This document shows, piece by piece, positions 6,943 to 40,565 of a stretch of DNA of 64,000 bases. The translations under genes were made by a program, and so were the position numbers. Source of the stretch: Polynucleobacter sp. AP-Melu-500A-A1 (GTDB lineage Bacteria; Pseudomonadota; Gammaproteobacteria; Burkholderiales; Burkholderiaceae); contig NZ_JACVOZ010000004.1 of the NCBI RefSeq assembly GCF_018882125.1, positions 124,001 to 188,000 on the forward strand, read 5' to 3'. Position 1 is the first letter of the stretch, and every line of letters begins with the position of its first letter. A model generated the notes under the pieces. The model was not told where the DNA came from. It searched no databases and saw only the letters and a program-made list of their open reading frames with translations.

Positions 6943-6952
6943 GAAGAGTACC

Positions 6953-7681: not shown

Positions 7682-7860
7682 TAATACTGTCTCCAATATA
7701 TTTTTTAAGCTACTTTAGCAGTATTTGAACATGCTATTGGGAATGTCGATAGAAGAATTATGGCTATGCTTTAAAAAAATGGTAGGCTTGAATAATTGCC
7801 AAAGTACTTATAGAAGCTTTATTTTCTAAGTTCATCAATAAAGATAAGAAAGATTCTGTG
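7682..7860. promoter_or_regulatory. Divergent promoter region between isomerase-like and nitroreductase genes
   Basis: About 180 bases separate two divergently transcribed genes, so both promoters must lie here. The stretch is AT-rich and I see no convincing operator palindrome or strong -35/-10 pair. The 3' end carries AAGAAAG about eight bases before the nitroreductase start. Confidence 0.3.
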
Positions 7861-8556: not shown

Positions 8557-8669
8557 GTTGATGGACTTATTGAGGGTTAGGGATTTCCCGATATATCACT
8601 TTGCACCCTAATCTCCTGTGCTATTGTCATCATAGACTCAATCACTGGGCTTAAATGAAAGGTTAATCG

Positions 8670-9668: not shown

Positions 9669-9684
9669 TTTTTGTTATAAATAA

Positions 9685-11343: not shown

Positions 11344-11374
11344 TATTAATTAAAAAATAAGTGAGACTACAACA

Positions 11375-12574: not shown

Positions 12575-12600
12575 TTTTAATTAAATTTCATAGAGGATTT

Positions 12601-23343: not shown

Positions 23344-24312
23344 ATGTTGAGATTCTCCCGTGTCTTTTTGGCCTTCTTGAGTACCACCCTAATTGTTGCT
23401 GGTACTGCTACAGCGGCGCCTTATCCCGAGAAGCCGATTAAATTAATCGTTGCTTGGTCGCCAGGTGGCACTACCGATATCTTGGCGCGCATCATTGCGC
23501 AAGGTTTATCTGAAAAGTTAGGGCAAACCGTACTCGTTGAAAATAAGCCAGGCGGTGGAAACAATATCGGTACTGAATACGTGATTCGTTCAGCGCCAGA
23601 TGGCTATACCCTCAATATGACCAATCCAGCCAATGCTATTAATGCCTCTTTGTATAAAGGGCTGTCCTTTAATTTTATTAACGATACTGTTCCGGTTGCT
23701 GGCGTAGTACGGACTCCCAATGTGATGGTGGTAACTGCTGCTTTGCCAGTGAAGAACGTTGATGAGTTTATTGCCTACTGCAAAGCCAATCCAACTAAGG
23801 TGAATATGGCTTCATCGGGTAGTGGATCTTCTATACATTTGTCTGGTGAATTATTTAAGATCATGACGGGTTGCAAGATGGCCCATATCCCTTATAAAGG
23901 AGCGGGACCTGCCTTAAATGACTTAATTGCAGGACAAGTACAAGTCATGTTCGATAACTTGCCATCGTCATCTGGCTTTATTAAGGATGGCCGTATTCGT
24001 GCTTTGGCAGTCACAACGTCAACGCGTGAAGCATCATTGCCAGGCGTCCCAACAGTTGCCGAGACAGTTCCTGGATTTGAAGCAAGTGCTTGGTTTGGGG
24101 TGAGTGCCCCTAAAGGGACGCCGCGTGAGATTGTGGAAAAACTGAATGTGGCGGTTAATCAATTACTCGCCGATCCAAAAATTCAGAAACGTTTATCTGA
24201 ACTCGGCGGAACTCCAATTCCTGGCACTCCTGAAGATTTTGGCAAGCTGATTTCTAACGACACCCAAAAATGGGAAAAGGTTGTGAAAACTTCAGGCGCG
24301 ACAGTCGATTAG
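23344..24312 (+). CDS. TTT-type (Bug family) periplasmic receptor
   Basis: A 322-residue Bug receptor with a signal peptide ending near ATAAP. Loops are AWSPGGTTDILAR, NKPGGGNNIGTEY, MASSGSGSSIHLSGELF and IPYKGAGPAL. The first loop starts AWS rather than VPF/VPY, a variation also expected to alter ligand contacts. AAAGGAG lies upstream of the ATG. It is placed between the amidase and a short-chain dehydrogenase on the same strand, suggesting that the transported ligand is an amide, an acid or a hydroxy acid handled by those enzymes. Confidence 0.92.
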   Translation: MLRFSRVFLAFLSTTLIVAGTATAAPYPEKPIKLIVAWSPGGTTDILARIIAQGLSEKLGQTVLVENKPGGGNNIGTEYVIRSAPDGYTLNMTNPANAINASLYKGLSFNFINDTVPVAGVVRTPNVMVVTAALPVKNVDEFIAYCKANPTKVNMASSGSGSSIHLSGELFKIMTGCKMAHIPYKGAGPALNDLIAGQVQVMFDNLPSSSGFIKDGRIRALAVTTSTREASLPGVPTVAETVPGFEASAWFGVSAPKGTPREIVEKLNVAVNQLLADPKIQKRLSELGGTPIPGTPEDFGKLISNDTQKWEKVVKTSGATVD

Positions 24313-24356
24313 TACGTCACTATTTAATAGAATAAATGATTTAAAGTATCGTTTCC

Positions 24357-25085
24357 GTGAACAAGAAAAATGTATTGATTACTGGTGCTGGCCGTGGCAT
24401 AGGTAGAGCCATTGCAACGCGCTTGACGCATGATGGTTATCGCGTGATTAATCTAGATAAGTCGGCGCCATCTAGCTTATTAGATGGTGAAGAATTTCAT
24501 TGTATTGATGTTACCGATAGCAAAGCCCTTGGCCAGCTGATCCAAGAGATTACTAGTCGTATCGAGGTAGTTCGGCTGGTCAATAACGCGGGCATGATAA
24601 AACCCGGTGCGCTCGAGGATGTGACCGAGAAAGACTTTGATGCTGTTTACGCTCTTAATCTAAAAGCGCCAATGCTAGTAGCGCAGTGTTTACTGCCGCA
24701 TATGCGTAAAGCCAATTTTGGAAGAATCGTCAATATTGCTAGCCGTGCAGCGCTTGGTAAGGAGGAGCGGACATCTTATGCCGCTACCAAGGCGGGCATT
24801 ATTGGAATGACCAGAACTTGGGCGCTGGAGTTAGCGCAATTTGGTATCACCGTAAATGCCATAGGCCCAGGCCCAATCGCAACTGAGCTATTTACTTCAG
24901 GCAATCCTCCTGGAGCGCCAAAAACTATCAAGATTATCGAGAGCATTCCGGTAAAAAGAATGGGGCAGCCAGAAGATATTGCGCATGCTGCCGCTTATCT
25001 CATGGATGATCGTGCAGGCTTTGTTACGGGGCAAACACTCTATGTTTGTGGCGGTATGACGGTGGGTTTGAGTAACGCCAGTTAA
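24357..25085 (+). CDS. Short-chain dehydrogenase/reductase
   Basis: The 242-residue protein is a classical SDR of the FabG type. The cofactor motif TGAGRGIG is at residues 9-16, NNAG at 76-79, and the catalytic Ser129, Tyr141 and Lys145 (YAATK) are all present. An acidic residue at the end of the second strand (LDKS) suggests NAD rather than NADP. The start is GTG 24357; no in-frame ATG is available nearby. It probably interconverts a hydroxy and an oxo group on the acid or CoA ester of this block. It lies 44 bases after the Bug receptor. Confidence 0.92.
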   Translation: MNKKNVLITGAGRGIGRAIATRLTHDGYRVINLDKSAPSSLLDGEEFHCIDVTDSKALGQLIQEITSRIEVVRLVNNAGMIKPGALEDVTEKDFDAVYALNLKAPMLVAQCLLPHMRKANFGRIVNIASRAALGKEERTSYAATKAGIIGMTRTWALELAQFGITVNAIGPGPIATELFTSGNPPGAPKTIKIIESIPVKRMGQPEDIAHAAAYLMDDRAGFVTGQTLYVCGGMTVGLSNAS

Positions 25086-25228
25086 GTAAATCTGCAGTTC
25101 TCCTGACACCAACTTATCCGTACATTTAAATAAACCCTAGGCTAATTTTTTTTGGGTATTATTTACACAGAAGAATCAATTTCTTGATATTTATTGATAA
25201 AAGATTTATTTAAAAATACAACGGAGAC

Positions 25229-26110
25229 ATGATGAGCATCAAGCCAGAAAAGCCTTACAAGGATATTCTTTTTGAAGTTAAAGATCAGGTAGCATGGATC
25301 ACCATTAATCGCCCAAGAGTGTTAAATGCTTTTAGAGAGCAAACCTTAGATGAGATGATTGATGCGGTTAAGTTGACCAGAGAAGATCCTTCTATTGCCT
25401 GTATCGTTTTTACCGGGGCAGGCGATAAGGCCTTTTCAGCCGGTGGTGACTTTTATGCGATGAAGCGCCTCACCTTTACCAATGGATCGATGTGGAATGA
25501 TCGGATGTTGGGTTTAGCAATGGCTATTCGGGGTGTTCCAATTCCTGCAATTGCGATGGTTAATGGTTGGTGTGTTGGTGGTGGTCATGAGCTGGCACTA
25601 TGGTGTGACTTGGTCATTGGCTCAGAAAAATCAGTCTTTGGTCAAACTGGTGCAAAAGTAGGTGCTTGCCCAACAGTAGGTGCGACCCAATATCTGCCAC
25701 GCATTGTTGGCGAACGTATCGCCCGCGAAATGATTTTCTTGGCAAAACGCTTTGATGCAAAAGATGCTGAAAGAATTGGCCTCATTAATAAGTGCGTACC
25801 AGAGGCAGATTTGCTAGCTGAAACATTGGCTTGGTGCGAAAGTATTAAGAGTAATAGTTCGCAAACGATTCGTATGACTAAGAAGAGCTTGAACTTTGAA
25901 TCAGATCAACTGTATGCTTCATGGCAGCATGGTATGGAATTACTGGCTTATGTTTGGGGTTCAGAAGAAAGTCTTGAGGGTATGAATGCCTTCCTCGAAG
26001 GTCGTAAACCAGACTTCCAACAATTTAGAATGAAGAACAAAGCTGCCCTCGAAGATTACATGGATGGATTTAGAAAGAATTTGAACGCACCGCCTGATAT
26101 GCGGGACTAA
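25229..26110 (+). CDS. MenB/BadI-like crotonase family enzyme
   Basis: The 293-residue crotonase resembles the naphthoate synthase (MenB) and 2-ketocyclohexanecarboxyl-CoA hydrolase (BadI) branch more than enoyl-CoA hydratase. The N-terminal RPRVLNAFREQTLDEM and GAGDKAFSAGGDF blocks and the FGQTGAKVG segment (137-145) follow that branch. The second glutamate of true hydratases (in PE of FGQPE) is replaced, as in MenB and BadI. The remaining glutamate is in GHELALWCD. These relatives open or close rings by retro-Claisen or Claisen chemistry. It has AACGGAGA before the start and is followed 11 bases later by a CoA-transferase, suggesting CoA-dependent breakdown of a cyclic or branched acid. Confidence 0.8.
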   Translation: MMSIKPEKPYKDILFEVKDQVAWITINRPRVLNAFREQTLDEMIDAVKLTREDPSIACIVFTGAGDKAFSAGGDFYAMKRLTFTNGSMWNDRMLGLAMAIRGVPIPAIAMVNGWCVGGGHELALWCDLVIGSEKSVFGQTGAKVGACPTVGATQYLPRIVGERIAREMIFLAKRFDAKDAERIGLINKCVPEADLLAETLAWCESIKSNSSQTIRMTKKSLNFESDQLYASWQHGMELLAYVWGSEESLEGMNAFLEGRKPDFQQFRMKNKAALEDYMDGFRKNLNAPPDMRD

Positions 26111-26121
26111 AGGTCAGCATC

Positions 26122-27351
26122 TTGAACCCAAGTGCTCAATCTAGTGCTTCGACACAAAGCGAAGGCGCGCTAGCGGGATTAAAAGTACTTGATCTCAGTC
26201 GCGTCTTGGCTGGTCCATGGTGTGGGCAACTACTAGGTGATCTTGGCGCAGATGTAATTAAAGTGGAATCGCCAGCAGGGGGTGATGACACGCGCGGCTG
26301 GGGCCCTCCATTTTTGGAGGGTGAGTCTGCCTATTTCTTGGGCTGCAATCGTAATAAGCAAGGTATTGCAATAGATTTCTCTAGTGCTGATGGAAAGCAA
26401 TTGCTTGCGCAGCTTATTCCCCAGTTTGATGTGCTGATTGAGAACTTTAAAAGCGGCACCTTAGATAAATGGGGATTTGATTCTGCTTGGTTTGAGAAAA
26501 ATGCTCCTGCCTTAGTGCGTTGCTCAATTACTGGATATGGCAGTGCCGGCTCCCAATCAGGTTTACCGGGCTACGACTTTATTTTGCAAGCAGAGTCTGG
26601 ATTGATGAGTATTGCTGGACCGGTAGATGGTGACCCTACAAAGTATGGTGTAGCAATTGTGGATTTAGCTACTGGCATGATGGCTGCCAATGCCATTCAA
26701 GCTGCCTTACTGGCGCGCTATAGAACTGGTAAAGGTCAGGCAGTTGAAGTCTCCTTATTTGATACCTCCATTGCTTTGTTGGCTAACGTAGGTAATAGTC
26801 ATCTTGCCACTGGAAAGGATTCTGGGCGCTATGGTAATGGACACCCAACCATTGTTCCTTACACAACATACCATTGTGCTGATGGCATGGTTGCGCTCGC
26901 AGTAGGTAACGATAAGCAATTTGCTCAGCTCTCTAAGATTTTAGGTCAGCCTGAGTGGGCGGATGATGAGCGACTAAAAACCAATTCAGCCCGAATCCAT
27001 CATCGCGCACTGATTGATGACTTGTTAGCAAAAAAACTGATTACCTTTGCCAGTAATGAGCTCATTGAATTGTGCCGATCAAATGGCATTCCCATTGGTA
27101 GGGTTAATACAGTGAGTCAGGCACTAGCCTCAGAGCAGACTGCTGCAAAAGAAATGGTTCTGGAGATGGATCATTCCAAGGCTGGAAAGTTCCGATCCTT
27201 AGCTTCCCCATTAAAGATGCATGGTTCTCATAATGCAAAGAAGCAGGCACCCCCTTTGCTCGGCGAACATACTGATGTAATCTTGAAGCAATATTTAGGT
27301 TTAAGTGATGCAGAATTAAGTGATTTAAAAAATAAAAAAGTTATTCAATAA
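26122..27351 (+). CDS. CaiB/BaiF family (class III) CoA-transferase
   Basis: The 409-residue protein has LAGLKVLDLSRVLAGPWC, GDLGADVIKVESPAGGD and the catalytic aspartate at 181 (VAIVDLATG), all class III CoA-transferase features, plus the C-terminal PPLLGEHT. The start is TTG 26122 with AAAGG upstream; the N-terminal 15 residues (Ser/Gln-rich) are variable in the family. It is paired with the MenB/BadI-like crotonase and followed by two Bug receptors. The gene set parallels the one around 11375-13836 but the proteins differ throughout, so this is not a recent duplication. Confidence 0.92.
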   Translation: MNPSAQSSASTQSEGALAGLKVLDLSRVLAGPWCGQLLGDLGADVIKVESPAGGDDTRGWGPPFLEGESAYFLGCNRNKQGIAIDFSSADGKQLLAQLIPQFDVLIENFKSGTLDKWGFDSAWFEKNAPALVRCSITGYGSAGSQSGLPGYDFILQAESGLMSIAGPVDGDPTKYGVAIVDLATGMMAANAIQAALLARYRTGKGQAVEVSLFDTSIALLANVGNSHLATGKDSGRYGNGHPTIVPYTTYHCADGMVALAVGNDKQFAQLSKILGQPEWADDERLKTNSARIHHRALIDDLLAKKLITFASNELIELCRSNGIPIGRVNTVSQALASEQTAAKEMVLEMDHSKAGKFRSLASPLKMHGSHNAKKQAPPLLGEHTDVILKQYLGLSDAELSDLKNKKVIQ

Positions 27352-27381
27352 ATTCCTTTTCAAAGGGATGGAGGGGTCAAT

Positions 27382-28377
27382 ATGCAAAATGTCTTAAACA
27401 AAAGATGTAAATCCTTGCTTGTTCTTGCTTTGCTTGGAATCTTTCAAGCAACAGCGTGGGCTCAAGCGGATAACTATCCTAATAGACCCATTAAACTGAT
27501 TATTACTTGGCCAGTGGGTGGTTTTGCGGATACGCTCGGGCGCACAGTGGCGAATCAGCTCAGCACAATTTTGGGACAACAGGTCGTGGTAGAAAACCGC
27601 GGTGGTGCGAATGGCATGATTGGAGCGGATGCAGTAGCTAAAGCGGCACCAGATGGCTATACCTTGATGTTTCAATCGGTCACATCGCATGCGATTAATC
27701 CAACGATGTATGGCAAGACTCCTTATTCCACTGAGAAGGACATTATTCCTTTAGCGGTGGTGGCGTCAGTCCCCATGCTCTTAGTAGCCAATCCGAACTT
27801 GCCAGCGAAAAATATTGCTGAGCTCATTGCTTTGGCTAAGAAGGAGCCAGACGCATTGGCTTATGCAACATTTGGCAATGGTAGTGCTAGTCATTTAGCA
27901 GGTGCGCTCTTTACCAATCAAGCTGGTATCAAAATGACGCACATTCCCTATAAAGGTGGCGCCCCAGCGATTACCGATACCTTAAGTGGCCAAACCCCAA
28001 TGAGTTTTTCTGCATTTGGTGTGGCTTTACCTCACGTCAAATCCGGCAAGCTCATTGCCTTGGGAACAACAGGACCTGCTCGTGCCAAACTTTTGCCAAA
28101 TGTTCCTACTATTGAAGAGGCAGGTAATCTCAAGGGATATGAAATGTCTATCGTGTATGCGGTATGGGCTCCAACGGGTGTGCCTGCACCTATCCTTAAT
28201 AAGCTCGATAAAGCATTAGAGCAAGTGGTGGCATCTAGCGCCTTTAAAGAAAAAGTGGCGAGTGATGGAGGCGAAGTGATGACCATAGCAGATCCAGCAG
28301 AGAGCAATATTTACTTCCAAAAAGAAATGCAACGTTTAAGCAAGATCGTCAAAGATGGCAATATAAAGGCAGACTAA
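27382..28377 (+). CDS. TTT-type (Bug family) periplasmic receptor, first of a tandem pair
   Basis: A 331-residue Bug receptor with a signal peptide ending in ATAWAQ. Its ligand loops are TWPVGGFADTLGR, NRGGANGMIG, YATFGNGSASHLAGALF and IPYKGGAPAI. It is the fifth family member in the window and is followed, one base after its stop, by a sixth. The two differ in every ligand loop, so they probably bind different molecules rather than being redundant copies. AAAGGGATGGAGGG lies upstream of the ATG and contains a strong ribosome site. Confidence 0.92.
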   Translation: MQNVLNKRCKSLLVLALLGIFQATAWAQADNYPNRPIKLIITWPVGGFADTLGRTVANQLSTILGQQVVVENRGGANGMIGADAVAKAAPDGYTLMFQSVTSHAINPTMYGKTPYSTEKDIIPLAVVASVPMLLVANPNLPAKNIAELIALAKKEPDALAYATFGNGSASHLAGALFTNQAGIKMTHIPYKGGAPAITDTLSGQTPMSFSAFGVALPHVKSGKLIALGTTGPARAKLLPNVPTIEEAGNLKGYEMSIVYAVWAPTGVPAPILNKLDKALEQVVASSAFKEKVASDGGEVMTIADPAESNIYFQKEMQRLSKIVKDGNIKAD

Positions 28378-28378
28378 T

Positions 28379-29365
28379 ATGAACCGTATATTTCAAAAAG
28401 TAATAGGTGCGCCACTGATTTTGGTTTGCGCAATGGGTTTAGCAAACGCGCAAAGCAAGGAAGTGAGCTCCTATCCCAATAAACCCATACGGATAATTAA
28501 TCCTCTGGCTGTTGGTGGCGCTGTAGATACGATGGCCCGTATGCTTGCTCCAGCCCTTCAAGAAATTTTGGGTCAAACCATTGTGATTGAAAGCAAGCCT
28601 GGTGCTGGTGGCACGATTGGCTCGAACTTTGTTGCTAAGTCACCCCCAGATGGTTACACCATCCTGATGGTGTATGACACTTTTGCTGTAAACCCCCACG
28701 TCTATAAAAATTTACCCTTTGATTCGTTTAAAGATCTTGCACCAGTGACTGAACTCGTGAAGATTCCTTTGGTAGTAGTTGCCGGTAATAAGTTACCTGC
28801 CAACAATTTGCGTGAGTTAACGGATTTATCTAAAACGAAGACAAATGGTATTAATTTCTCAAGCGGTGGTGCGGGCAGTTCAGGTCATCTAGCTGCCGAG
28901 TTACTCAAAACCAATCTCGGTATTGATATGACCCATGTTCCTTACAAGGGGGGTGGTCCAGCAATGACTGCAACGATTAGTGGTGAGACTGATATTACGA
29001 TTTTGGGCGCAGTAATTACAGTGCCTCAAATTAAGGGTGGCAATTTAAAGGCCTTAGCAGTGCTTGGAAAAAAACGCACTCCCGCTTTACCGCAAGTTCC
29101 AACAGCAAGCGAGCAGGGTTTAAGCAATTTTGATGTGAGTTCTTGGGTTGGGGTATTAGTTCCAGCAGGTACACCAGCGCCAATTATCGACAAGATCAAT
29201 AATGCATTTGCGCAAGCTCTAAAAAGTCCGGCTGTTCAGGCGCGTATGGCTGAGCAGGGCAATGAAGTGGTTGCCAGCTCACCCGCTCAGTTTGGCGTAT
29301 TTCTGAATCAAGAGTCTGTTAAATGGGCTAAGGTCATCAAGGACAACAATATTCAACTAGAGTAA
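28379..29365 (+). CDS. TTT-type (Bug family) periplasmic receptor, second of a tandem pair
   Basis: A 328-residue Bug receptor with signal peptide ending in GLANA before QSKEV. The first loop reads NPLAVGGAVDTMAR, unusual in having an asparagine and a leucine where most have VP-F/Y-P. The other loops are SKPGAGGTIG, FSSGGAGSSGH and VPYKGGGPAM. It starts one base after the stop of the preceding receptor, so both are on one transcript. A hairpin overlapping its stop codon ends the block against the convergent amidohydrolase. Confidence 0.92.
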   Translation: MNRIFQKVIGAPLILVCAMGLANAQSKEVSSYPNKPIRIINPLAVGGAVDTMARMLAPALQEILGQTIVIESKPGAGGTIGSNFVAKSPPDGYTILMVYDTFAVNPHVYKNLPFDSFKDLAPVTELVKIPLVVVAGNKLPANNLRELTDLSKTKTNGINFSSGGAGSSGHLAAELLKTNLGIDMTHVPYKGGGPAMTATISGETDITILGAVITVPQIKGGNLKALAVLGKKRTPALPQVPTASEQGLSNFDVSSWVGVLVPAGTPAPIIDKINNAFAQALKSPAVQARMAEQGNEVVASSPAQFGVFLNQESVKWAKVIKDNNIQLE

Positions 29366-30581: not shown

Positions 30582-31190
30582 ATGCTACCTATTTTGTATT
30601 CCTACCGTCGATGCCCCTATGCAATGCGGGCGCGTATGGCACTGCAATATTCTGGAATTGAGCTTGAGCACCGAGAGATTGAGTTAAAAAATAAGCCGCA
30701 ATCAATGCTACTGGCATCGCCCAAGGGAACAGTTCCTGTCTTGTGTGTTGATGGAAAAGTGATTGATCAGAGTTTAGACATCATGCATTGGGCAATAGCG
30801 CAATCGGATCCGGACAAGTGGGGGGATATCGATGAGAGCATAGGCCAGATTTGGATTGATAAAAATGATGACCCATTTAAAAAATTACTTGATCAATACA
30901 AGTATCCCAATCGTTATCCCGAACTCATCCAAGAAAATATTTTGAGTGCCATAGAAGATTTAATGCTCAAGCCCATGGAAACTGCATTGCAGTCGAGTCA
31001 ATATTTATTAGGAAACAAGATGACTTGGGTGGATGTTGCCATCTTTCCATTTATCAGACAGTTCTCTATGGTGAATCAACAAAGGTTTGAGCAATTGCCA
31101 TATCCATCAATGAAGCGATGGTTAAATCAATTTCTTGAATCAGACTTATTTAATTCGGTGATGCAAAAGCATCCAACTTGGAAAGAGTAA
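30582..31190 (+). CDS. Glutathione S-transferase family protein
   Basis: The 202-residue protein has an N-terminal thioredoxin-like domain with YRRCPYAMRAR at about residues 8-18. A CPYA site is found in omega-like transferases and glutaredoxin 2. The glutathione-binding cis-proline segment GTVPVL and the DQSLDIM turn follow. Residues 90-200 form the helical C-terminal domain. Cysteine rather than serine or tyrosine at the active site suggests thiol transfer or deglutathionylation instead of detoxifying conjugation. It stands alone between the amidohydrolase (divergent) and the nfr locus. Confidence 0.88.
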   Translation: MLPILYSYRRCPYAMRARMALQYSGIELEHREIELKNKPQSMLLASPKGTVPVLCVDGKVIDQSLDIMHWAIAQSDPDKWGDIDESIGQIWIDKNDDPFKKLLDQYKYPNRYPELIQENILSAIEDLMLKPMETALQSSQYLLGNKMTWVDVAIFPFIRQFSMVNQQRFEQLPYPSMKRWLNQFLESDLFNSVMQKHPTWKE

Positions 31191-31369
31191 GTAAGTAGAT
31201 GTAGGTGCTGTGACTAATATTCATGCACCAAAAAAGGGCTATTATATCGATATAATCTGTCCCTAGAGCTAGTTATCATTACAATAGTGACATTAATTCA
31301 ATCCCTTAGGCTTATTTTTTGGATGTTCTTTTAGAGATTTTTATTGATAAATATCTCTTTTAGGTTGCT
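31191..31369 (+). promoter_or_regulatory. Upstream region of the nfr locus with a 16-base palindrome
   Basis: A perfect 16-base palindrome, ATTATATC-GATATAAT (31241-31256), ends in a consensus TATAAT -10 sequence. No good -35 element stands 17 bases upstream, so a factor-dependent promoter or an operator covering the -10 are both possible. It lies about 115 bases before the first gene of the nfr locus. Confidence 0.4.
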
Positions 31370-32470
31370 ATGTCATTGATTCAATGGAAAATTCTGATTG
31401 TCTGTGGGACGCGTCCCGAAATTATCAAATTGGCCCCCGTTTACCATTTTTTGCGCACCCAAGATTGGTGCGAAGTGAAATGGTTACATACTGGTCAACA
31501 TCAAGAGATGGCTGATCAAATTCTGGCTTGCTTTGATATCACTCCTGACATTATTTTAAGAAGAGCGGGAAGCTCACTTTCAGAATTTAGCATTGGCTGT
31601 AGGCAGCAACTAGATGTGGTTATGGAAGTTACCAAATGGAGCACTGTTATTGTTCAGGGGGATACTGAAAGCGCATTTTTGGGAGGCTTATCCGCTTTTT
31701 ATCAGCGCATTCCCGTAGCCCACGTTGAAGCAGGACTTCGAACCTATGACTTAACTAGGCCATTCCCAGAAGAAGGCCTACGACAAATGTTGTCTCGTAT
31801 TACGCAATTTCATTTTCCGCCTACTGAGGGCGGAAGAATTGCCTTAATTAAAGAAGCTATTCCAGAGAAAAATATTTTCATTACAGGCAATACGGTAGTG
31901 GACGCTCAGAAATGGGTAATTCAGAAATACGATATTCATAAGGAAGAGACTTCTGGCAGAAATATCCTAGTCACCATGCATCGGCGTGAGAATTGGGGTA
32001 GTGATATTGAAGAGGCATGCTCTGCTATTGCTAGCTTAGCCAGGGAGCATCCCGATCTCAATGTACTGTTTCCAGTCCACCTTAATCCGGTCGTTAAAAA
32101 ATCAGTAGACCCTATCTTAGGTGCTTTACCGAATGTCACCTTAACTGATCCCCTGGGCTACTTGGAGATGCAGCAGGCCATTGCAGATGCATGGTTAATC
32201 TTGACTGACTCTGGAGGAATCCAAGAGGAGGCGCCAACTTTTCATGTTCCTGTATTAGTACTTCGTCGAGAGACCGAAAGGCCTGAGGCAGTTCAAGCGG
32301 GATGCGCCAAGATTATCGGTACCAGTGGAGCTGCCGTGATTCATGAAGTGAATGCATTATGGAATGACCCATCTCTATATGAATCAATGAAACCGATTGT
32401 TAACCCCTTTGGTGATGGCTGTGCAAGTGAGCGTATTAGCAATGTTCTCAAGAGTCACCTCAGTCAGTAG
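31370..32470 (+). CDS. wecB: UDP-N-acetylglucosamine 2-epimerase (non-hydrolysing)
   Basis: The 366-residue enzyme interconverts UDP-GlcNAc and UDP-ManNAc in the cytoplasm. VCGTRPEIIKLAP is the family opening, and the catalytic acids of E. coli WecB (Asp95, Glu117, Glu131) are matched with the same spacing by Asp98 (VQGDTES), Glu120 (HVEAGLRT) and Glu134 (FPEEGLR). LTDSGGIQEEAP is also present. In E. coli this gene is nfrC, required for N4 phage adsorption together with nfrA and nfrB. Here it directly precedes nfrB by two bases, which strongly suggests that UDP-ManNAc is made for the NfrB glycosyltransferase. Confidence 0.95.
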   Translation: MSLIQWKILIVCGTRPEIIKLAPVYHFLRTQDWCEVKWLHTGQHQEMADQILACFDITPDIILRRAGSSLSEFSIGCRQQLDVVMEVTKWSTVIVQGDTESAFLGGLSAFYQRIPVAHVEAGLRTYDLTRPFPEEGLRQMLSRITQFHFPPTEGGRIALIKEAIPEKNIFITGNTVVDAQKWVIQKYDIHKEETSGRNILVTMHRRENWGSDIEEACSAIASLAREHPDLNVLFPVHLNPVVKKSVDPILGALPNVTLTDPLGYLEMQQAIADAWLILTDSGGIQEEAPTFHVPVLVLRRETERPEAVQAGCAKIIGTSGAAVIHEVNALWNDPSLYESMKPIVNPFGDGCASERISNVLKSHLSQ

Positions 32471-32472
32471 TT

Positions 32473-34683
32473 ATGTATTGGATCGATATTGTTGCAAGCT
32501 ATCTTTTTGTACTGAAGTATGTAGCCATTACCGTTGCCATCATTATTTCTATAAGTAGTCTTGATGATTTGGTGATTGATGTGGTTTATTGGGCTAGGCG
32601 CTTAGTACGTTCGCTGACGGTTTATCGCAAACATCCCCACATGCTGTATTCAGCATTGTTTTCAGTTCCAGAGAAACCACTAGCAATTATGGTCCCTGCT
32701 TGGCAAGAGACTGGCGTGATTGGGAAGATGGCCGAGTTAGCAGCGATCACGCTTGATTATGAGAATTACCATATCTTCGTTGGCACCTACCCAAACGATC
32801 CTGAAACACAATTAGATGTGGATAAGGTATGCGCGGTATTTCCTAATGTCCACAAGGTAGTTTGCGCAAGGCCTGGGCCTACTAGTAAGGCAGACTGCTT
32901 AAATAATATCCTGGATGCCATCTTACAGTTTGAGATACAAGCCAGTTTGGAATTTTCTGGATTTATATTACATGACTCCGAAGATGTTGTGTCTCCATTG
33001 GAGTTACGTCTGTTTAATTACTTGCTCCCTAAGAATGATCTCATTCAAATTCCGGTATACCCCTTTGAAAGAAGCTGGCAAAACTTTACCTGTATGCACT
33101 ACTTAGATGAGTTTGCAGAATTACATGGCAAGGATGTTGTGGTGAGAGAAGCGCTAGCGGGTCAAGTTCCAAGCGCTGGAGTAGGAACCTGCTTTAGTCG
33201 TAAAGCGGTTCTTGCTCTATTGGAAGATGGTGATGGTATTGCATTTGATGCACAGAGCTTAACTGAGGACTATGACATTGGCTTTCGCCTGAAGGAAAAA
33301 GGCCTTAAGGAAATTTTTGTTCGCTTTCCAGTTATCTTGGATGACTCTGAGGCGGCTAGAAAAAAACTACTAACAGGGCAAAGTATTCGGGATTCGAATG
33401 TGATTTGTGTGCGTGAGTATTTTCCAGATACCTTAGCAACAGCCATTCGCCAAAAGTCTCGCTGGATTACTGGGATTGTATTTCAGGGTTATAAAACCCA
33501 TCGTTGGACTCCCAATCCTATTCTGAATTATTTTCTTTGGAGAGATCGCAAAGGGGCGATTACGAACTTTATTAGTTTTATTGCGACCATCATCCTTTTT
33601 CAATTGGTATTACTCTGGCTTTATCAAAACCTATGGCCTGATGCTTATCATTTCCTATCCATTTTTGAATCGAGCGAATGGTTGATGGGGTTCTTATGGC
33701 TCAATTTTTTCTTGATGATGAACCGTATTGCACAACGAATCTTTTTCGTCTCATCCTATTACGGTTTATTAGAGGGTTTGCTTTCTGTTCCTCGCTTGTT
33801 TTGGGGGAATTACATTAACTTTATGGCCAATTGGAAAGCAGTGAAGCAGGTCATCGAACATAGTGATGTGCGACGTATCGCCTGGGATAAAACTACCCAT
33901 GACTTTCCAACTATTGGACTTGAAAATGCAGAGCGAAAAAAGCTTGGGCAGATCCTAATAGATCGCGAAATCATTACACAAAAACAATTGGATTTGGTTT
34001 TATTGCATAAGCAATCTGGAATGAGGATTGGCAGTGCATTAGTACACGAGGGTATTTTGAACACAGAAGAATTGGCTGATGCACTTGCAATCCAGGCAGG
34101 TGTCTCATCAGAATCTATTGACCCTTACTCAATCAATGAAGATTTAATCCAAAGTATTCGCCCTTCCATTGCATTGCATTATGCAATTTTGCCTATTCGG
34201 TTTGAGGATAGTTGTTTGGTGGTAGCAAGTGAGTCAGCATTAGATCCGATTTCATTAGCTGCCATCAGTAGAAAAGTACATCATCAAATACTGTATGTGA
34301 TTGTGCCAAAAGGGCAGGTCACTATTGGCCTGAGAAAATGGTATGCCCGAAATAAATCCGTTGATCCACGGAAGGTATTAGATGATGCGCTTACAGAGGG
34401 AAAGATCAAACCTAAGCAGGTTGATGCTATTTGGAATTTCTATGTCTCGAGGCAGGTATTACTAGCAGAAATTTTGGTTTCGCTAGGGCATATTAATGAA
34501 GCTGCATTACGCGCATTACTATTACAACATTCAGTCACTAATTTATACCTGGGTGACTTTTTGGTTGATAAGAATATTATTACCCAAGAGACCTTAGAAA
34601 AAGCACTCGCTCTTCAACAAAAGATACAACCTGATATAAATCAGCTAATTTCATCTGGTATTCCAATGGCGCGTACCCATTGA
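32473..34683 (+). CDS. nfrB: NfrB-like glycosyltransferase with C-terminal MshEN-like domains
   Basis: The 736-residue inner-membrane protein matches E. coli NfrB (about 745 residues). After an N-terminal helix (7-30) comes a family 2 glycosyltransferase domain with DSED at 168-171, TEDYD at 264-268 and QKSRW at 327-331, the last typical of processive enzymes. Membrane segments follow (about 362-385, 403-420, 425-450). Residues 490-541 form a tandem MshEN motif (KLGQILID...HKQ, then RIGSALVHEG...AIQ), a known c-di-GMP-binding module, and residues 663-716 look like a second, degenerate pair. Its stop overlaps the nfrA start (ATGA). A c-di-GMP-gated secreted-glycan synthase is the likely role. 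Confidence 0.9.
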   Translation: MYWIDIVASYLFVLKYVAITVAIIISISSLDDLVIDVVYWARRLVRSLTVYRKHPHMLYSALFSVPEKPLAIMVPAWQETGVIGKMAELAAITLDYENYHIFVGTYPNDPETQLDVDKVCAVFPNVHKVVCARPGPTSKADCLNNILDAILQFEIQASLEFSGFILHDSEDVVSPLELRLFNYLLPKNDLIQIPVYPFERSWQNFTCMHYLDEFAELHGKDVVVREALAGQVPSAGVGTCFSRKAVLALLEDGDGIAFDAQSLTEDYDIGFRLKEKGLKEIFVRFPVILDDSEAARKKLLTGQSIRDSNVICVREYFPDTLATAIRQKSRWITGIVFQGYKTHRWTPNPILNYFLWRDRKGAITNFISFIATIILFQLVLLWLYQNLWPDAYHFLSIFESSEWLMGFLWLNFFLMMNRIAQRIFFVSSYYGLLEGLLSVPRLFWGNYINFMANWKAVKQVIEHSDVRRIAWDKTTHDFPTIGLENAERKKLGQILIDREIITQKQLDLVLLHKQSGMRIGSALVHEGILNTEELADALAIQAGVSSESIDPYSINEDLIQSIRPSIALHYAILPIRFEDSCLVVASESALDPISLAAISRKVHHQILYVIVPKGQVTIGLRKWYARNKSVDPRKVLDDALTEGKIKPKQVDAIWNFYVSRQVLLAEILVSLGHINEAALRALLLQHSVTNLYLGDFLVDKNIITQETLEKALALQQKIQPDINQLISSGIPMARTH

Positions 34684-37247
34684 TGAAATTGATCTGGTTT
34701 ATCAGCTTATTTGTATTGAGTTCCTGCGTCTTTGCTGAGCAGGCTGCTCAGATAGATTTGGGTCCCGGCGTTAATTCCTATCAAAAGTTCCTAATCTATC
34801 CCCATATTGAAAAGGGCTTAAGTGCCTTAGATAGCGGTGATAAGCAGAGAGCGATTGAAGAATTTCAGTGGGCACGAAAAAGAGCGCCTAAAAGTCCTGC
34901 AACAGCTTTATATCTTGCGAATGCCTATATTCAGAGTGATGATTATCGGGGTGCTGTGGAGGTCTTGGAGCAACAACTACACCTTACCCCAAAAGACCAG
35001 CAGCTACTCATAAGACTCTCAAATACCTTGATACTGGAAAAAGACTATATCGCTGCCTCAAATTCTTTAAAGGAAGAGCTTAGGCTCAACAAGAATAATG
35101 CCATTGCTCAAGAAAAGTTAAACGTGGTTAATCAAGAGTTGGTCAATGAAGAACTGGAGCGCTTAAAGATTTTGCAAGAAGAAGACCCGACTCAATTTTT
35201 AGAAGACTTAAAAGAAAAGAAGGTGAAGTTTGGGAATGCCTTTGAAGAGCGAAATTGGATTAATCTTTTGCTGACGGACTTCGTTAAGCAGCCTGAATTA
35301 CTTTTAAGTTACCAGCCAGAGTTTGAATCGAATAAGATTTATCAGGCTGAAAAGGTTCTACAGAAATTATTGATGTCAGGCCGCCAATCTGAGGCTGATG
35401 CGTATATAGGACATCTTCCCAATGCCATTAGACATGATCCTATTTTTTTGGATCACTTAAGCTATCAATTGCTCAACGAAAATGGCGAACATCAAGCTAT
35501 TGAGCTCCTTGTAGAGGGCTTTCCGTACGAGGGTGCTACTGAAGCTGAAAAGATTGAATTAGTCAGTAGACTACTTCTATTGTTGGGGAATCACAGCGAT
35601 GCCTTAGCTAGCATTCCCACAAAGTTGAGTGAGCCGCTTCCTACTCCTGAGTTACGTTCACTTCAGGTGAAATTACTTTCCGCTCTGAAGGATTGCTCTG
35701 GGATAAGAAATGTTTTGGCTGATCAATCCGCCTTTTATACAGCAGATGATTGGACTCGTCTGGGTTACTGTTATGGAGATAAAGTTCCTGGTTTAGGTGT
35801 GCTTGCATTTGAGCGTGCAGAAGAGTTAGCACCGGGTCCTGAAAAGGAGAGGACGGTAGCCTATCAAGCATTTACTGCTAAGAATTATTTACGCGCTCTA
35901 ACGGCATGGAATTCAATTCCGATGAATTTGATCACGCCAGAAGACGCATTGAGTGCCGCCACTACTGCACAAACGCTTGGAGATATTAAGGAATTAAATA
36001 AGTGGCTAGAGGTATATGACAAACAGAACGGCGTAAAGAGTGGTCGCTATTGGTGGTTACAAGCACAGACTAAGCTAAAGTCTGATCCTAAATCAGCATT
36101 ATTGGATTTAATTAAAGCCGCCACTCTTGAGCCATCGGTTACCTACTATTCTCAAATTGCTTCTCTTTTGCTCCTTGAGGGAAAAGTGAGCGAGGCAATT
36201 GTGTATTTAAATAAGGCTTTGGTATTAAATCCCTATGACAGTGCTACACAGGCTTCCTTGGGCTATGCTTATTACCAACAGAAACAATATTTACGGGCAG
36301 AAAACTTTTTAAAGGCTTCATTAAAAACGCGTCCTGACGATGAAGAGCTCGTGAAGCAGTTGGCCTATACCACTCAGAAGCTTGGTAAAAATAAGCAAGC
36401 CATTCAGTATTCAGAAGAAGCAATTGATAGCTTTAATCGCTATAGCCCATCTGAAAGAACGCCGGATATTGAAAACCAGCAGTTTGGCATGAGAAGAATG
36501 CATGAAGATTTAGAGCGTCGTTGGTCATTTACAGCGGATGCTATGAGTGGTAACCAGGTAACGGCTGCCCCTAACGTTGGCCAACCTGGGAGTAATTACC
36601 GTAGCTACTCACAGGCAGAGGCTGCTTATCGATTGGGGAATCCGGCAATTGATAATGGTAAGACCCTTTCTGCATACACTCGTATTTTTGCAGGAGGAGG
36701 GGTGAATAACTCAGCTGCTCCTATTTACGCTCCAATGATTGCAGCAGGCTTACGATGGAAACCCTTGTCTGATTACGTGCTGAATTTGGCTGTTGAGGAG
36801 CAGACGCCTTTAGATCGAGGTCAATATACCCAAACTTCAATGATGTTAAGAGCAAGCGCCTCATTTTTAAATTCAGGTAAATATAGTGATGATTGGCATC
36901 CTGTTGGTCCTGGGTGGATAGCACAAAATCTGTATTTAGATGCTGCACACTATTTATCAAACTCTGTGACCTCTTTAGTATCAGATTATCGCGTCAGTTA
37001 TCACCGTAAAATTGCAGAGGGTCAGACGGTTGAACCCTATGTTCATGTGCAATGGGCCAGCCTAAATCAGGCCAACGGAGTTGATGAACGGGTAGGTATT
37101 GGTGCTCGTTGGAATATTTGGCAAGGTCAAAGTAAATACAATGCATACCCCAGCAAAATATTAATAGGGTTAGAGTACCAGTATGCCTTCAAAACTTATC
37201 TGAACGACAAGAGTGCGGTCTTATTAAGTTTGGGAGGACGTTGGTAA
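34680..37247 (+). CDS. nfrA: NfrA-like outer-membrane export protein
   Basis: The 855-residue protein has a signal peptide (residues 1-20, with an LSSC sequence that could be a lipobox), tetratricopeptide repeats at about 30-140 and again at 480-590, and a C-terminal beta-rich domain (about 630-855) resembling the conserved C-terminus of N4 adsorption protein A. E. coli NfrA is longer, about 990 residues. In E. coli NfrA sits in the outer membrane and is the N4 phage receptor or exports the glycan receptor. ATG 34680 overlaps the nfrB TGA; ATG 34683 is an equal alternative. The TPR-plus-barrel architecture resembles PgaA and BcsC exporters. Confidence 0.87.
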   Translation: MMKLIWFISLFVLSSCVFAEQAAQIDLGPGVNSYQKFLIYPHIEKGLSALDSGDKQRAIEEFQWARKRAPKSPATALYLANAYIQSDDYRGAVEVLEQQLHLTPKDQQLLIRLSNTLILEKDYIAASNSLKEELRLNKNNAIAQEKLNVVNQELVNEELERLKILQEEDPTQFLEDLKEKKVKFGNAFEERNWINLLLTDFVKQPELLLSYQPEFESNKIYQAEKVLQKLLMSGRQSEADAYIGHLPNAIRHDPIFLDHLSYQLLNENGEHQAIELLVEGFPYEGATEAEKIELVSRLLLLLGNHSDALASIPTKLSEPLPTPELRSLQVKLLSALKDCSGIRNVLADQSAFYTADDWTRLGYCYGDKVPGLGVLAFERAEELAPGPEKERTVAYQAFTAKNYLRALTAWNSIPMNLITPEDALSAATTAQTLGDIKELNKWLEVYDKQNGVKSGRYWWLQAQTKLKSDPKSALLDLIKAATLEPSVTYYSQIASLLLLEGKVSEAIVYLNKALVLNPYDSATQASLGYAYYQQKQYLRAENFLKASLKTRPDDEELVKQLAYTTQKLGKNKQAIQYSEEAIDSFNRYSPSERTPDIENQQFGMRRMHEDLERRWSFTADAMSGNQVTAAPNVGQPGSNYRSYSQAEAAYRLGNPAIDNGKTLSAYTRIFAGGGVNNSAAPIYAPMIAAGLRWKPLSDYVLNLAVEEQTPLDRGQYTQTSMMLRASASFLNSGKYSDDWHPVGPGWIAQNLYLDAAHYLSNSVTSLVSDYRVSYHRKIAEGQTVEPYVHVQWASLNQANGVDERVGIGARWNIWQGQSKYNAYPSKILIGLEYQYAFKTYLNDKSAVLLSLGGRW

Positions 37248-38137
37248 TGCGAATATTGCTGGCAATTTTATTTTGTGCGTTATCTAGTATTGCTTCTGCT
37301 GGCGATATTAGAGGCATCATTTTTCAACCTCGAGAATCTGATCTAGCTATTCCTGTAGAAAACTGGCCTACTATTTTTGCTCTTGCGAAGAAAAAAGGAT
37401 TTAATACTCTCGTTATTCAATGGACTGGATTTGGAGAGACTTTTTCATCATCCAAAAACCAAGCATGGTTAAGAGATCGTATGCTTGAAGCTTCTCATGC
37501 GGAGCTAAAGTTGATCGTGGGTCTAGCGAGCGATCCAGAGGTCTTTGAGCGATTAAAGCAGCCCACTTCAATTGTGGGAAGCTATTTTAGGAAGATGAAT
37601 GAGGCGAATTTACATCTAGCGCAACATTGGTTAGACGCGCTTCCAAAGGGCGCGATTTCTGCCTGGTATCTTCCATTAGAGATCGATGATCGCCAATGGA
37701 GAGAGCTGTCTGCAAGAGCGGAATTGATTAAGTACTTAGAGCGTCAAGTCATAGATTTAGATTCGTTGAGTCCATTGCCTGTCTATATCTCTAGTTTCTT
37801 TACAGGCAATATGACTCCTGAGCGCTATGCCGCAATGCTAGAAAGCATAGAGTCTCAATCTAAGGTACATTTTTGGATTCAAAATGGGAGTGGAACAGCT
37901 AAGTTAATGCCCCTAGAACGGGACTTATATATAGGCGCAACTACTAACTGCGCCGGCTTCGCTATTTCTGGTTTGATTTTTGAGTTATTTAAGCAAACAC
38001 AGGTGGATAGTAATTTTGCAGCAAAGCCGCTTAGCCCCCCTGAGATGAGCAAGGCATTAGATCAAAAGAGTCCGTGTCAAGGTGATAATGTATTTTTTGC
38101 GCTTAATTATTTGATTGATTTAACTAACCCTAAGTAA
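37247..38137 (+). CDS. ybcH: YbcH-like DUF4434 protein, secreted
   Basis: The 296-residue protein starts at ATG 37247 (TAATG overlap with the nfrA stop; GGGAGG upstream); the frame from TTG 37241 is less likely. A signal peptide covers about residues 1-18 (SSIASA, then GDIRG). Blocks such as GFNTLVIQWTGFGETF and ISAWYLPLEIDDRQW fit the DUF4434 family, predicted glycoside-hydrolase-like barrels. E. coli ybcH, next to nfrA and nfrB, has a similar length and presumably the same role. Periplasmic trimming or release of the glycan is a guess. The carboxylates of a hydrolase active site might be Glu and Asp in LPLEIDD, but this is not proven. Confidence 0.75.
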   Translation: MRILLAILFCALSSIASAGDIRGIIFQPRESDLAIPVENWPTIFALAKKKGFNTLVIQWTGFGETFSSSKNQAWLRDRMLEASHAELKLIVGLASDPEVFERLKQPTSIVGSYFRKMNEANLHLAQHWLDALPKGAISAWYLPLEIDDRQWRELSARAELIKYLERQVIDLDSLSPLPVYISSFFTGNMTPERYAAMLESIESQSKVHFWIQNGSGTAKLMPLERDLYIGATTNCAGFAISGLIFELFKQTQVDSNFAAKPLSPPEMSKALDQKSPCQGDNVFFALNYLIDLTNPK

Positions 38138-38171
38138 TACAAAATATGAGCCATCTACTCGCTTAACTATC

Positions 38172-40565
38172 TTGCAATCCAATCAGGCCCAATCCCTCCT
38201 CATATTTTTTAGCTTATTTTCATTTGCTAGTGCTGCTTTATTGGGTATGTATCACCAAAAAGAGCAGCGAAGCTATGTAATGTATTGGGTTATAGCCAGT
38301 GTGTTAATTGGTATAGGCGCCATATTTGGCGCCTATACCCCCAAGATGCCCGATATTCCCAGTTACGAGATCAGCGTTACCTGTGCGGTGTTGGGATCCC
38401 TCTTTTTCAATCACTCTATTTCTACACTTTTAGGTAAAAAAATAAGCTTAGGGCATTTTGGTGTTTATATCATTGGGCTGGCGCTTGTATTTCTGCTCTG
38501 TTTATACGAAATCGGCGATTATGCAGGAACTCAATATAAACCTGCTGTGGTTGCTGCTTTTATGGCCACAATCAGTTTTATAGGCTTTAGACTATCTTTA
38601 AAATACTTTCGCGAGAGTAAATTCACTCTAGCTAGCGCTCTCAGTATCACTTTTCTGATCACCGCCTTGGTCTGGGCAGTTCGAATGATTGCCGTTACCA
38701 ATTATCAGGTTGGCTTTGCCTATGAGGGCGGCACTATTAATGGTGTCATTTTTATCGCCTTGTTAATTTTATCAATCCTACGATTTTTAATTTTCGGCGG
38801 ATTAATAATGGAAATTTTAGAGCGTAAAAGAGGTCTGATTACTCAAGAATTTAACCAACTAAAACTGGATGTGGCAAATCAAAAAATCGCTAAATCAGAA
38901 CAACAGCTTCGCCACGTATTAAATATCACGGGCGATGGAATTTGGGACTGGAATGTAAGTACAGGAGAAGTTAAGCACAATGATCGCTGGATGAGTATCT
39001 TAGGTGAAAAACCGAACGATATGATTTTTACGAACAAAGACTTTAAGATACACATTCATCCAGATGATCTTGCAATGGTGCTCAACCATCTTGAATCTGC
39101 GCTAATAAACGATGTGCCATATCACCTTCAATATAGGATGATTAGAGCTGATAATGAAGTGATATGGGTTCAGGATCGCGGCCAAGTAGTAGAAAGATCT
39201 AGTGGCGGGGATCCTCTCAGAATGATTGGCGCTATTAGTGACATTAGCAGCAGAAAAAGAGATCAGGATCAGATTAAAGATCTGGCATTCTTTGACCAGT
39301 TAACTAATTTACCCAATCGTAACTATATTAAGGACCGAATCTTCCGAGCAATACAGGAGTCAATTCGAAATAAAACATATTCAGGTTTAATTTATTTAGA
39401 TTTAGATAACTTTAAAAATATTAATGATCGTTATGGGCATTACGTCGGGGATGTATTGCTCATGGAATTTGGTAAGCGCATACAGCATGCTGTACGTCCA
39501 AAAGACATTGTTGCCAGAATTGGCGGTGATGAGTTCTTAGTTCTCCTAGAGCAGGTTGGCTCATCAAAAAGTAACGCCACCCAAATGTTGGAACAAATCA
39601 TTGCTCGTATTGAGGCTAATTTAATAGAGCCACTGCAATTGAATGATGGAATACAGGCAGCTATTAAAGTTAGCAGCGGCCTGGTAATTTTTGGGGAGGA
39701 GGTTGCAAAGTTTGATGACATTCTTAAATTTGCAGATTTAGCAATGTATTCCGCTAAGAAGGATAGTGGTGTGAGCCATCGTTTCTTTGATGAAAATATG
39801 CAAGCGGAATTTAATCAGTCAATCAATTTAGTTGATGAGTTGAATGAGGCATCTGAGTTAGATCAGTTTTATATGGAATATCAACCAATAGTTGATCGCA
39901 ATCAAGAATGTATTGCATTTGAGGCCTTAGCGAGGTGGAATCATCCCACTCGCGGTGTGGTTATGCCGGATGATTTCATTCCCTTCGCAAAAGATAATGG
40001 ATTAATTGTTAAGGTTGGCCAATCTATTTTTAGACAAGTAGTAAATAATCATGAGCTATGGAGCGCTGCAGAAAGTTCACGCAACTTCTCGATTATGATA
40101 AATGTCAGTGCATATCAGCTCCTCAGCCCAGGCTTTGCAGACCAGTTGATTAACCTGTGTGAAATTCATCATATTCCAATAGCCCGTCTAAGCCTGGAAT
40201 TGACTGAGAATGTTTTCGTTTCGGATGTACGTTTAGCTGGTGAAGTGATGGCTCAACTACAAAATCACGGTGTCCAATTTGCGCTAGATGATTTTGGAAC
40301 TGGCTATGCTTCTCTTAAATATCTGGCCGACCTACCATTTCAATATCTCAAGATTGATAAGCAATTTGTTTCTGGTCTAGGTGATCTTAAGGCGAATGAA
40401 GTGATCGTTGATGCTATTTTAGATCTTGCAAAAGGCCTTAATATGAAAGTAATTGCCGAAGGAGTGGAAACCCAGGAGCAATTTGAAATTCTGCACGCCA
40501 AAGGGTGCGGATACTTCCAGGGCTGGTATTTTGGTAGGCCAAGCCAAACCCTACAATTACTTTAG
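38172..40565 (+). CDS. Membrane-anchored PAS-GGDEF-EAL c-di-GMP enzyme
   Basis: The 797-residue protein begins with about seven membrane helices (10-215), then a PAS domain (243-360), a GGDEF domain (365-535) and an EAL domain (550-797). GGDEF is intact at 451-455, with the inhibitory I-site RPKD at 442-445, five residues upstream. EAL is intact (584-586) with Asn644, Glu679, DDFGTGY 706-712, Lys727, Glu763 and Gln783, so both synthesis and hydrolysis of c-di-GMP are possible. The start is TTG 38172; no better in-frame start is seen. It lies 34 bases after ybcH on the same strand and probably controls the nfr glycan through NfrB. Confidence 0.9.
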   Translation: MQSNQAQSLLIFFSLFSFASAALLGMYHQKEQRSYVMYWVIASVLIGIGAIFGAYTPKMPDIPSYEISVTCAVLGSLFFNHSISTLLGKKISLGHFGVYIIGLALVFLLCLYEIGDYAGTQYKPAVVAAFMATISFIGFRLSLKYFRESKFTLASALSITFLITALVWAVRMIAVTNYQVGFAYEGGTINGVIFIALLILSILRFLIFGGLIMEILERKRGLITQEFNQLKLDVANQKIAKSEQQLRHVLNITGDGIWDWNVSTGEVKHNDRWMSILGEKPNDMIFTNKDFKIHIHPDDLAMVLNHLESALINDVPYHLQYRMIRADNEVIWVQDRGQVVERSSGGDPLRMIGAISDISSRKRDQDQIKDLAFFDQLTNLPNRNYIKDRIFRAIQESIRNKTYSGLIYLDLDNFKNINDRYGHYVGDVLLMEFGKRIQHAVRPKDIVARIGGDEFLVLLEQVGSSKSNATQMLEQIIARIEANLIEPLQLNDGIQAAIKVSSGLVIFGEEVAKFDDILKFADLAMYSAKKDSGVSHRFFDENMQAEFNQSINLVDELNEASELDQFYMEYQPIVDRNQECIAFEALARWNHPTRGVVMPDDFIPFAKDNGLIVKVGQSIFRQVVNNHELWSAAESSRNFSIMINVSAYQLLSPGFADQLINLCEIHHIPIARLSLELTENVFVSDVRLAGEVMAQLQNHGVQFALDDFGTGYASLKYLADLPFQYLKIDKQFVSGLGDLKANEVIVDAILDLAKGLNMKVIAEGVETQEQFEILHAKGCGYFQGWYFGRPSQTLQLL
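38310..38339. repeat. Perfect 13-base-pair inverted repeat inside the GGDEF-EAL coding region
   Basis: GGTATAGGCGCCA (38310-38322) and TGGCGCCTATACC (38327-38339) are perfect reverse complements around a TATT loop. They encode part of the second membrane helix region (around IGAIFGAY). A hairpin this stable near the 5' end of an mRNA could affect translation or be a protein-binding site. Confidence 0.6.

Follow-up and report, generated by a model that had tools for sequence, protein, structure and literature searches.

A five-gene Nfr-type exopolysaccharide locus that includes a predicted c-di-GMP enzyme gene in Polynucleobacter

Introduction

The Nfr system of Escherichia coli, whose glycan has been named NGR (N4 glycan receptor; PMC8669472), is among the closest described relatives of the locus reported here. 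The C-terminal MshEN tail of E. coli NfrB binds cyclic di-GMP (c-di-GMP) with a Kd of 1.0 µM, and Nfr function in this species requires WecB (PMC8669469). Linkage of nfrB to wecB genes is common, and most pseudomonads also have a GGDEF gene linked to nfrB (PMC8669469); nfrA, nfrB, and wecB are clustered in Achromobacter (PMC8669472). Here we describe five genes (i.e., wecB, nfrB, nfrA, ybcH, and a PAS-GGDEF-EAL gene) that follow one another in tight order on one strand, at positions 31370 to 40565 of a 64-kb stretch of a Polynucleobacter genome (the whole stretch is hereafter called the window). We consider it probable that they form an Nfr/NGR-type unit for exopolysaccharide production that is gated by c-di-GMP.

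The locus resembles the E. coli NfrBA-YbcH and WecB system in the gene order nfrB-nfrA-ybcH, in the glycosyltransferase family 2 (GT2) and MshEN motifs, and in the need for a UDP-N-acetylglucosamine (UDP-GlcNAc) 2-epimerase (PMC8669469, PMC8669472). However, the E. coli wecB gene lies in the enterobacterial common antigen operon and DgcJ is the activating enzyme among 12 cyclases, whereas here the epimerase and cyclase genes stand beside nfr and no other GGDEF domain was found. Published Nfr loci with wecB and pseudomonad loci with a GGDEF gene likewise have a local epimerase or cyclase (PMC8669469), although in the Polynucleobacter locus GGDEF and EAL are combined in one protein, the sole such match in the genome. 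The Achromobacter nfrA-nfrB-wecB cluster is also betaproteobacterial with its own wecB, but it adds BcsB-like and O-acetyltransferase genes that were not seen in the Polynucleobacter locus (PMC8669472). In Yersinia pestis, a single exopolysaccharide is likewise coupled to a small c-di-GMP network (HmsT, HmsD, and HmsP with hmsHFRS), with different polymer machinery and with separate cyclases and phosphodiesterase (PMC4264472). The literature retrieved for Polynucleobacter and c-di-GMP included PMC2408644, in the available part of which c-di-GMP concerns Acholeplasma. Our new points include the conservation of wecB to the GGDEF-EAL gene as one block and the presence, side by side, of one recognized c-di-GMP enzyme and one recognized receptor, together with the prediction that YbcH is probably a glycosidase.

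Gene content of the locus

All five open reading frames (ORFs) are open at the coordinates given below (ORF check), and their families were assigned by Pfam and NCBIfam profile scores; every feature lies on the forward strand. The gene order and the 2-nt and overlapping junctions from wecB to ybcH, as given in a preliminary description of this DNA, agree with the ORF coordinates. The epimerase, which the same description had as "fused" into the locus, is encoded by a separate, adjacent gene.

The first gene, wecB (nfrC; 31370 to 32470), matches the model of non-hydrolyzing UDP-GlcNAc 2-epimerases (TIGR00236, 396 bits; cut-off, 210) and carries GTRPE, QGDT, EAGLR, FPEE, and HRREN motifs, which we take to be signatures of this enzyme. 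Its product is expected to make UDP-N-acetylmannosamine (UDP-ManNAc). A second WecB-type epimerase is encoded elsewhere in the genome (C1:581090, 225 bits). We rejected it as a stand-in for the locus wecB: its neighbors are FnlA-like and RmlD-like genes (L067, i.e., G000:C1:575000-590000, positions 4190 to 7209), which give it the appearance of a part of a UDP-N-acetylfucosamine pathway, in which it would presumably be FnlC. Radical SAM and HldE-like genes are nearby.

After a 2-nt gap follows nfrB (32473 to 34683), which encodes a predicted inner-membrane GT2 polysaccharide synthase (PF13632) with a C-terminal MshEN region. It aligns over nearly its full length with the NfrB model NF008411 at 1167.9 bits, about 2 bits short of the equivalog cut-off of 1170, and its synthase signatures are intact (DSED [DxE/D] at residue 168, TED at 264, and QKSRW [QxxRW] at 327). 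The MshEN region (residues 490 to 630; 33940 to 34362) is recognized by PF05157 (31.4 bits; cut-off, 23.1) and NF053729 (70.3 bits; cut-off, 38), with KLG at residue 490 and RIG at 518. BcsA or another synthase was rejected as an identity for this protein, which scores 1168 bits with the NfrB model and 13 bits with the CelA model.

The nfrA gene (34680 to 37247) encodes a predicted outer-membrane export protein with tetratricopeptide repeats and an NfrA_C domain (PF13283, 132 bits; cut-off, 25; residues 679 to 839), and its score with the full-length model NF007302 (508.8 bits) is clearly below the cut-off of 1223. Its listed TTG start overlaps nfrB by 4 nt, while the likely start, ATG at 34683, overlaps the nfrB stop codon by 1 nt. 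The ATG of ybcH (37247 to 38137), a gene of the DUF4434 family, likewise overlaps the nfrA stop codon by 1 nt.

The last gene (38172 to 40565) starts at its listed TTG 34 nt after ybcH, as noted previously. Its product has a hydrophobic N-terminal part followed by PAS (PF08447, 65.6 bits), GGDEF (PF00990, 138.8 bits; 39285 to 39764), and EAL (PF00563, 239.5 bits; 39834 to 40541) domains. The GGDEF motif (residue 451), the RxxD motif (residue 442), and the full EAL set (EAL, NVS, ELTEN, DDFGTG, KID, EGVE, and QG) are intact. Taking these motifs, as we assume, to mark c-di-GMP synthesis and breakdown, we regard the protein as a candidate bifunctional enzyme.

Conservation of the five genes as one block

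We compared the locus with those of sister genomes by blastn. In Polynucleobacter sp. 15G-AUS-farblos (G114), similarity extends over 31275 to 38319 (74%) and 38711 to 40556 (71%), with a break at 38320 to 38710, in a single locus (L054), which defines a conserved block at 31275 to 40556 whose immediate flanks differ between the two genomes. To the left, the shared backbone can be followed up to 29369 and is then lost until similarity resumes at 31275. In the window, a glutathione-transferase gene (30582 to 31190) is located to the left of the block; in G114 this gene is found on the right, beside DUF2127 and TetR genes (i.e., its counterpart, L163 11380-12024, is on the opposite side of the nfr block). 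In G159, 31268 to 38312 and 38532 to 40556 are matched on two separate contigs (L056 and L161), neither of which has any similarity to the flanking DNA of the window.

The NfrB and GGDEF-EAL trees agree in the branching (WIN,(G159,(G114,G153))), where WIN is the window, with a support of 100/100 for the GGDEF-EAL clade; the G153 row is partial, and in the NfrB tree the window and L072, whose contig ends too early, stand at an open fork. Because of this block conservation and the like-branching trees, the GGDEF-EAL gene belongs to the Nfr locus, as the preliminary description proposed.

c-di-GMP machinery in the genome and the genus

In the host genome (G000; 2.29 Mb, 10 contigs, 99.99% complete), the GGDEF and EAL searches each gave a single match, both in the PAS-GGDEF-EAL gene, and the MshEN search gave a single match, in NfrB. 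PilZ and HD_5 had no match; other receptor types and c-di-GMP riboswitches were not searched for. These domain searches are bound to thresholds, below which degenerate domains could remain. The cell therefore has one recognized c-di-GMP enzyme and one recognized receptor, encoded side by side. As the sole GGDEF protein found in the genome, the PAS-GGDEF-EAL enzyme must act as a cyclase if NfrB is ever switched on.

We surveyed 186 Polynucleobacter genomes, of which 14 have an NfrB match (one decayed, in G051, and one short and at a contig end, in G109); these 14 are not independent of one another. GGDEF domains occur in 128 genomes, including 12 of the 14 with NfrB, and PilZ in 51, including 2 of the 14 (G002, i.e., Polynucleobacter aenigmaticus, and G110, i.e., Polynucleobacter sp. 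71A-WALBACH) and 49 of the 172 without an NfrB match. EAL was matched in 12 of the 14 nfrB genomes (above the cut-off in 10), several of the matches being weak and at a distance from nfr; in G114, a second EAL match falls below the cut-off. Six nfrB genomes have as many GGDEF matches overall as at their nfr locus (one in G000, G114, and G137; two in G039, G046, and G068). In the latter three, the position of the second GGDEF is deduced from the two GGDEF genes per locus, and all six of these genes are above the Pfam cut-off. Three of four GGDEF domains are at the nfr locus in G110 and one of four is on the nfr contig in G159, where another contig carries a GGDEF-EAL relative (74%) at its edge. 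Within the stretches examined, none of the GGDEF domains of G135 (0/3), G157 (0/5), and G051 (0/6) are at nfr. G153 lacks a GGDEF match because its contig ends inside the GGDEF-EAL gene.

In 9 of the 10 assessable loci of the genus, a GGDEF gene or, once, the start of a GGDEF-EAL relative lies within approximately 7 kb of nfrB (G000, G114, G153, G159, G110, G039, G068, G046, and G137, but not G002); G153 is counted on the first 299 residues of its GGDEF-EAL relative, the GGDEF domain being beyond the contig end. Four loci were left out of this count: in G157 and G135, the contig ends in nfrA or shortly after it; in G109, nfrB is located at the end of its contig; and the G051 locus is decayed. 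No GGDEF was found upstream of nfrB in G157 (8.0 kb), G135 (2.3 kb), or G109 (8.8 kb), and none was found in the 20-kb G051 locus. The latter, in a one-contig genome, retains decayed wecB, nfrB, nfrA, and ybcH pieces that are 58 to 82% identical to the window's proteins (L066, i.e., G051:C1:1117000-1136900, at approximately 7651 to 12984), and nfr is being lost there.

The window-type GGDEF-EAL gene directly follows ybcH in only three genomes (G000, G114, and, in part, G153). In G039, G068, G046, G137, G159, and G110, the long GGDEF genes next to nfr were all of the dCache_1-GGDEF type (6/6 scanned; L061, L062, L063, L064, L056, and L060), and G159 may have both types. The same architecture is given for DgcJ, which is the NfrB-activating cyclase of E. 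coli (PMC8669472). We do not claim the dCache_1-GGDEF proteins as DgcJ orthologues, since the DgcJ model matches their GGDEF part alone (72 to 95 bits; cut-off, 500). GGDEF frames of similar size (517 to 520 amino acids) also occur in NfrB-free genomes, as judged by sizes only.

Several observations weigh against a dedicated, c-di-GMP-gated Nfr unit. NfrB, NfrA, and YbcH score below their NCBIfam equivalog cut-offs, although NfrA and YbcH are above the Pfam cut-offs. The wider neighborhood is common to the window and G114 on both sides, and the turnover of flanking genes, rather than movement of a unit, may therefore explain the differing flanks. The nfr locus of G002 has no GGDEF in the 14 kb examined (of which only 2.3 kb is upstream of nfrB), while this genome has three GGDEF and two PilZ domains elsewhere. 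G110 has one GGDEF away from the locus and two PilZ domains approximately 36 to 37 kb from nfrB, and in G109, nominally 100% complete, the nfrB ORF is short and located at a contig end, and there is no GGDEF match. GGDEF domains are present in 116 of the 172 genomes without an NfrB match, in which c-di-GMP must serve other ends. Finally, full-length relatives of the GGDEF-EAL protein (45 to 50%) are found in five genomes without NfrB (G167, G079, G064, G162, and G139), in four of them in a like setting by gene sizes. This type of enzyme was thus not made only for Nfr, and these relatives suggest that it is older than the five-gene block.

The last two observations would also be expected if the GGDEF-EAL gene encoded a general c-di-GMP regulator that stands beside nfr by chance and acts on unrecognized targets. 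We consider this quite improbable, given that the gene is conserved as part of the block, that it branches with nfr in four genomes, and that the searches of the host genome revealed no further PilZ or MshEN receptor.

Nfr loci outside the genus

The best 80 of 248 nfr loci were compared, 8 from the genus and 72 from outside it. Among the latter, 35 have a wecB gene within 400 bp upstream of nfrB and in the same orientation, and 6 have one at another place in the locus; YbcH is encoded in 66, and GGDEF occurs in 10. Absences are soft because the locus lengths differ. Since related loci have nfrB-nfrA-ybcH, often with wecB, the gene order is not due to chance. A lack of co-occurrence of wecB and the GGDEF-EAL gene with nfrBA, which had been put forward as a refuting outcome, was not observed, given the wecB genes outside the genus and the GGDEF genes within it; the window-type gene, with its three cases, and GGDEF outside the genus lend weaker support. 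In E. coli strain SCPM-O-B-8794 (L098, 15186 to 17753), the nfrB ORF is short (550 amino acids) and followed by a 185-amino-acid ORF, and downstream of ybcH there is a MASE4-GGDEF gene in the same orientation.

The linkage of nfr to wecB and to a cyclase is already in print (PMC8669469), and the general idea is therefore not new. One may ask whether this is an ordinary Nfr locus with a linked cyclase, as in Pseudomonas, and nothing distinct. Such a reading seems to us rather unlikely, because the published linked enzyme of pseudomonads is described as a GGDEF protein, in contrast to the GGDEF-EAL protein found here, which is the sole such match in its genome. Of the self-contained, c-di-GMP-gated system proposed in the preliminary description, the Nfr type, borne out by the family matches (including NfrB over unrelated synthase families), and the membership of the GGDEF-EAL gene stand, while the linkage itself had been reported before.

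YbcH as a predicted glycosidase

YbcH matches PF14488 (100 bits; cut-off, 30) and falls below the cut-off of NF007404 (235.9 bits; cut-off, 344). AlphaFold2 predicted an eight-stranded (beta/alpha)8 barrel (predicted local distance difference test score, 94.2; predicted template modeling score, 0.91). In an alignment of 50 proteins (18 to 68% identity to the window's YbcH), 11 residues are invariant (Q27, Q58, W59, G92, Y141, E145, Q212, G216, E246, F248, and F284), and 9 of them, all except Y141 and G216, are within two residues of the C-terminal end of a strand. In glycosidases of clan GH-A, strands 4 and 7 carry the catalytic glutamates at their ends. In the YbcH model, Glu145 (codon 37679 to 37681), the proposed acid/base, is the penultimate residue of strand 4 (residues 137 to 146), and Glu246 (codon 37982 to 37984), the proposed nucleophile, is the last residue of strand 7 (residues 242 to 246), which in the predicted structure is the GH-A layout.

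The top Foldseek match was 4h41, a putative alpha-L-fucosidase (E value, 3.9e-07), followed by glycosidases mixed with other triosephosphate isomerase (TIM)-barrel enzymes. In the VIA comparison, 4h41 aligned over 252 residues (Z score, 20.6; root mean square deviation, 3.1), and the next matches were glycoside hydrolase family (GH) 5, GH42, and GH164 enzymes and beta-amylases (Z scores, 15 to 17; GH5 enzyme 1rh9, 17.2); most of the 50 VIA rows listed were glycosidases. A search of PDB sequences with the YbcH profile gave no match. A shared TIM-barrel fold by itself shows no function, but with the invariant glutamate pair a glycosidase becomes the likeliest interpretation; YbcH is probably a periplasmic glycosidase.

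PMC8669469 labels YbcH a putative scaffold and reports that, in E. coli, N4 does not require the protein and the motility effect depends on it only in part. These data, and the many Foldseek matches to non-glycosidase TIM-barrel enzymes, would be in keeping with a noncatalytic TIM-barrel protein that acts as a scaffold or binds sugar. Such a role would leave unexplained both glutamates, conserved down to 18% identity, and the other invariant residues near strand ends (Q27, Q58, W59, G92, Q212, and F284), and it fits poorly with the predominance of glycosidases in the VIA comparison. We therefore judge it unlikely. The predicted glycosidase also accommodates the E. coli result, as dispensability for N4 fits a trimming enzyme. 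The words hydrolase, glycosidase, and Polynucleobacter are absent from the main text of PMC8669469; in the literature searched, DUF4434 did not occur as a whole word, and the YbcH or DUF4434 matches examined were mostly unrelated uses of these letters.

Exopolysaccharide operons are known to encode hydrolases such as BcsZ, PslG, PelA, and PgaB. A periplasmic glycosidase beside a synthase and an exporter, as proposed for YbcH, would resemble these, from which YbcH differs in belonging to DUF4434, with no PDB chain matched by its profile.

Neighboring sequence

Left of the block, three TctC-type tripartite transporter receptor genes and an enoyl-CoA hydratase family gene occupy 23344 to 29365. 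The search for mobile-element signs at the block ends gave only weak two-copy repeats, and no Rfam match and no tRNA were found in the 64-kb window. There were 14 promoter-like sites, below the 27.7 of shuffled sequences, and 10 terminator-like sites, equal to the 10.0 of the shuffles.

Discussion

By analogy with the E. coli work, WecB would convert UDP-GlcNAc to UDP-ManNAc, which NfrB would polymerize when its MshEN tail holds c-di-GMP, and NfrA would take the chain across the periplasm and the outer membrane. On the strength of the structure prediction, YbcH, as a periplasmic TIM-barrel glycosidase, may trim or release chains. The PAS-GGDEF-EAL enzyme would set the c-di-GMP level that gates NfrB, with the EAL half probably switching it off, and the outcome would be a one-enzyme, one-receptor circuit. 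As in E. coli, the glycan may also serve as a phage receptor.

We see the main strength of these findings in the one-enzyme, one-receptor arrangement and in what is predicted for YbcH. More tentatively, and with less than even confidence, we propose that the block is a "private wire" with its own c-di-GMP enzyme, receptor, precursor enzyme, and glycosidase, that this cell uses c-di-GMP for nothing else, and that YbcH is the founding member of a new glycosidase family with the Nfr glycan as its substrate.

Networks of c-di-GMP usually comprise many enzymes and targets (E. coli has 12 cyclases and 13 phosphodiesterases; PMC8669469), and "local" signaling is hard to prove for this reason. A cell with one recognized enzyme and one recognized receptor, encoded by adjoining genes, would offer a clean test system for local signaling, and the predicted glycosidase of the Nfr operon may be a tool for learning the nature of the Nfr glycan.

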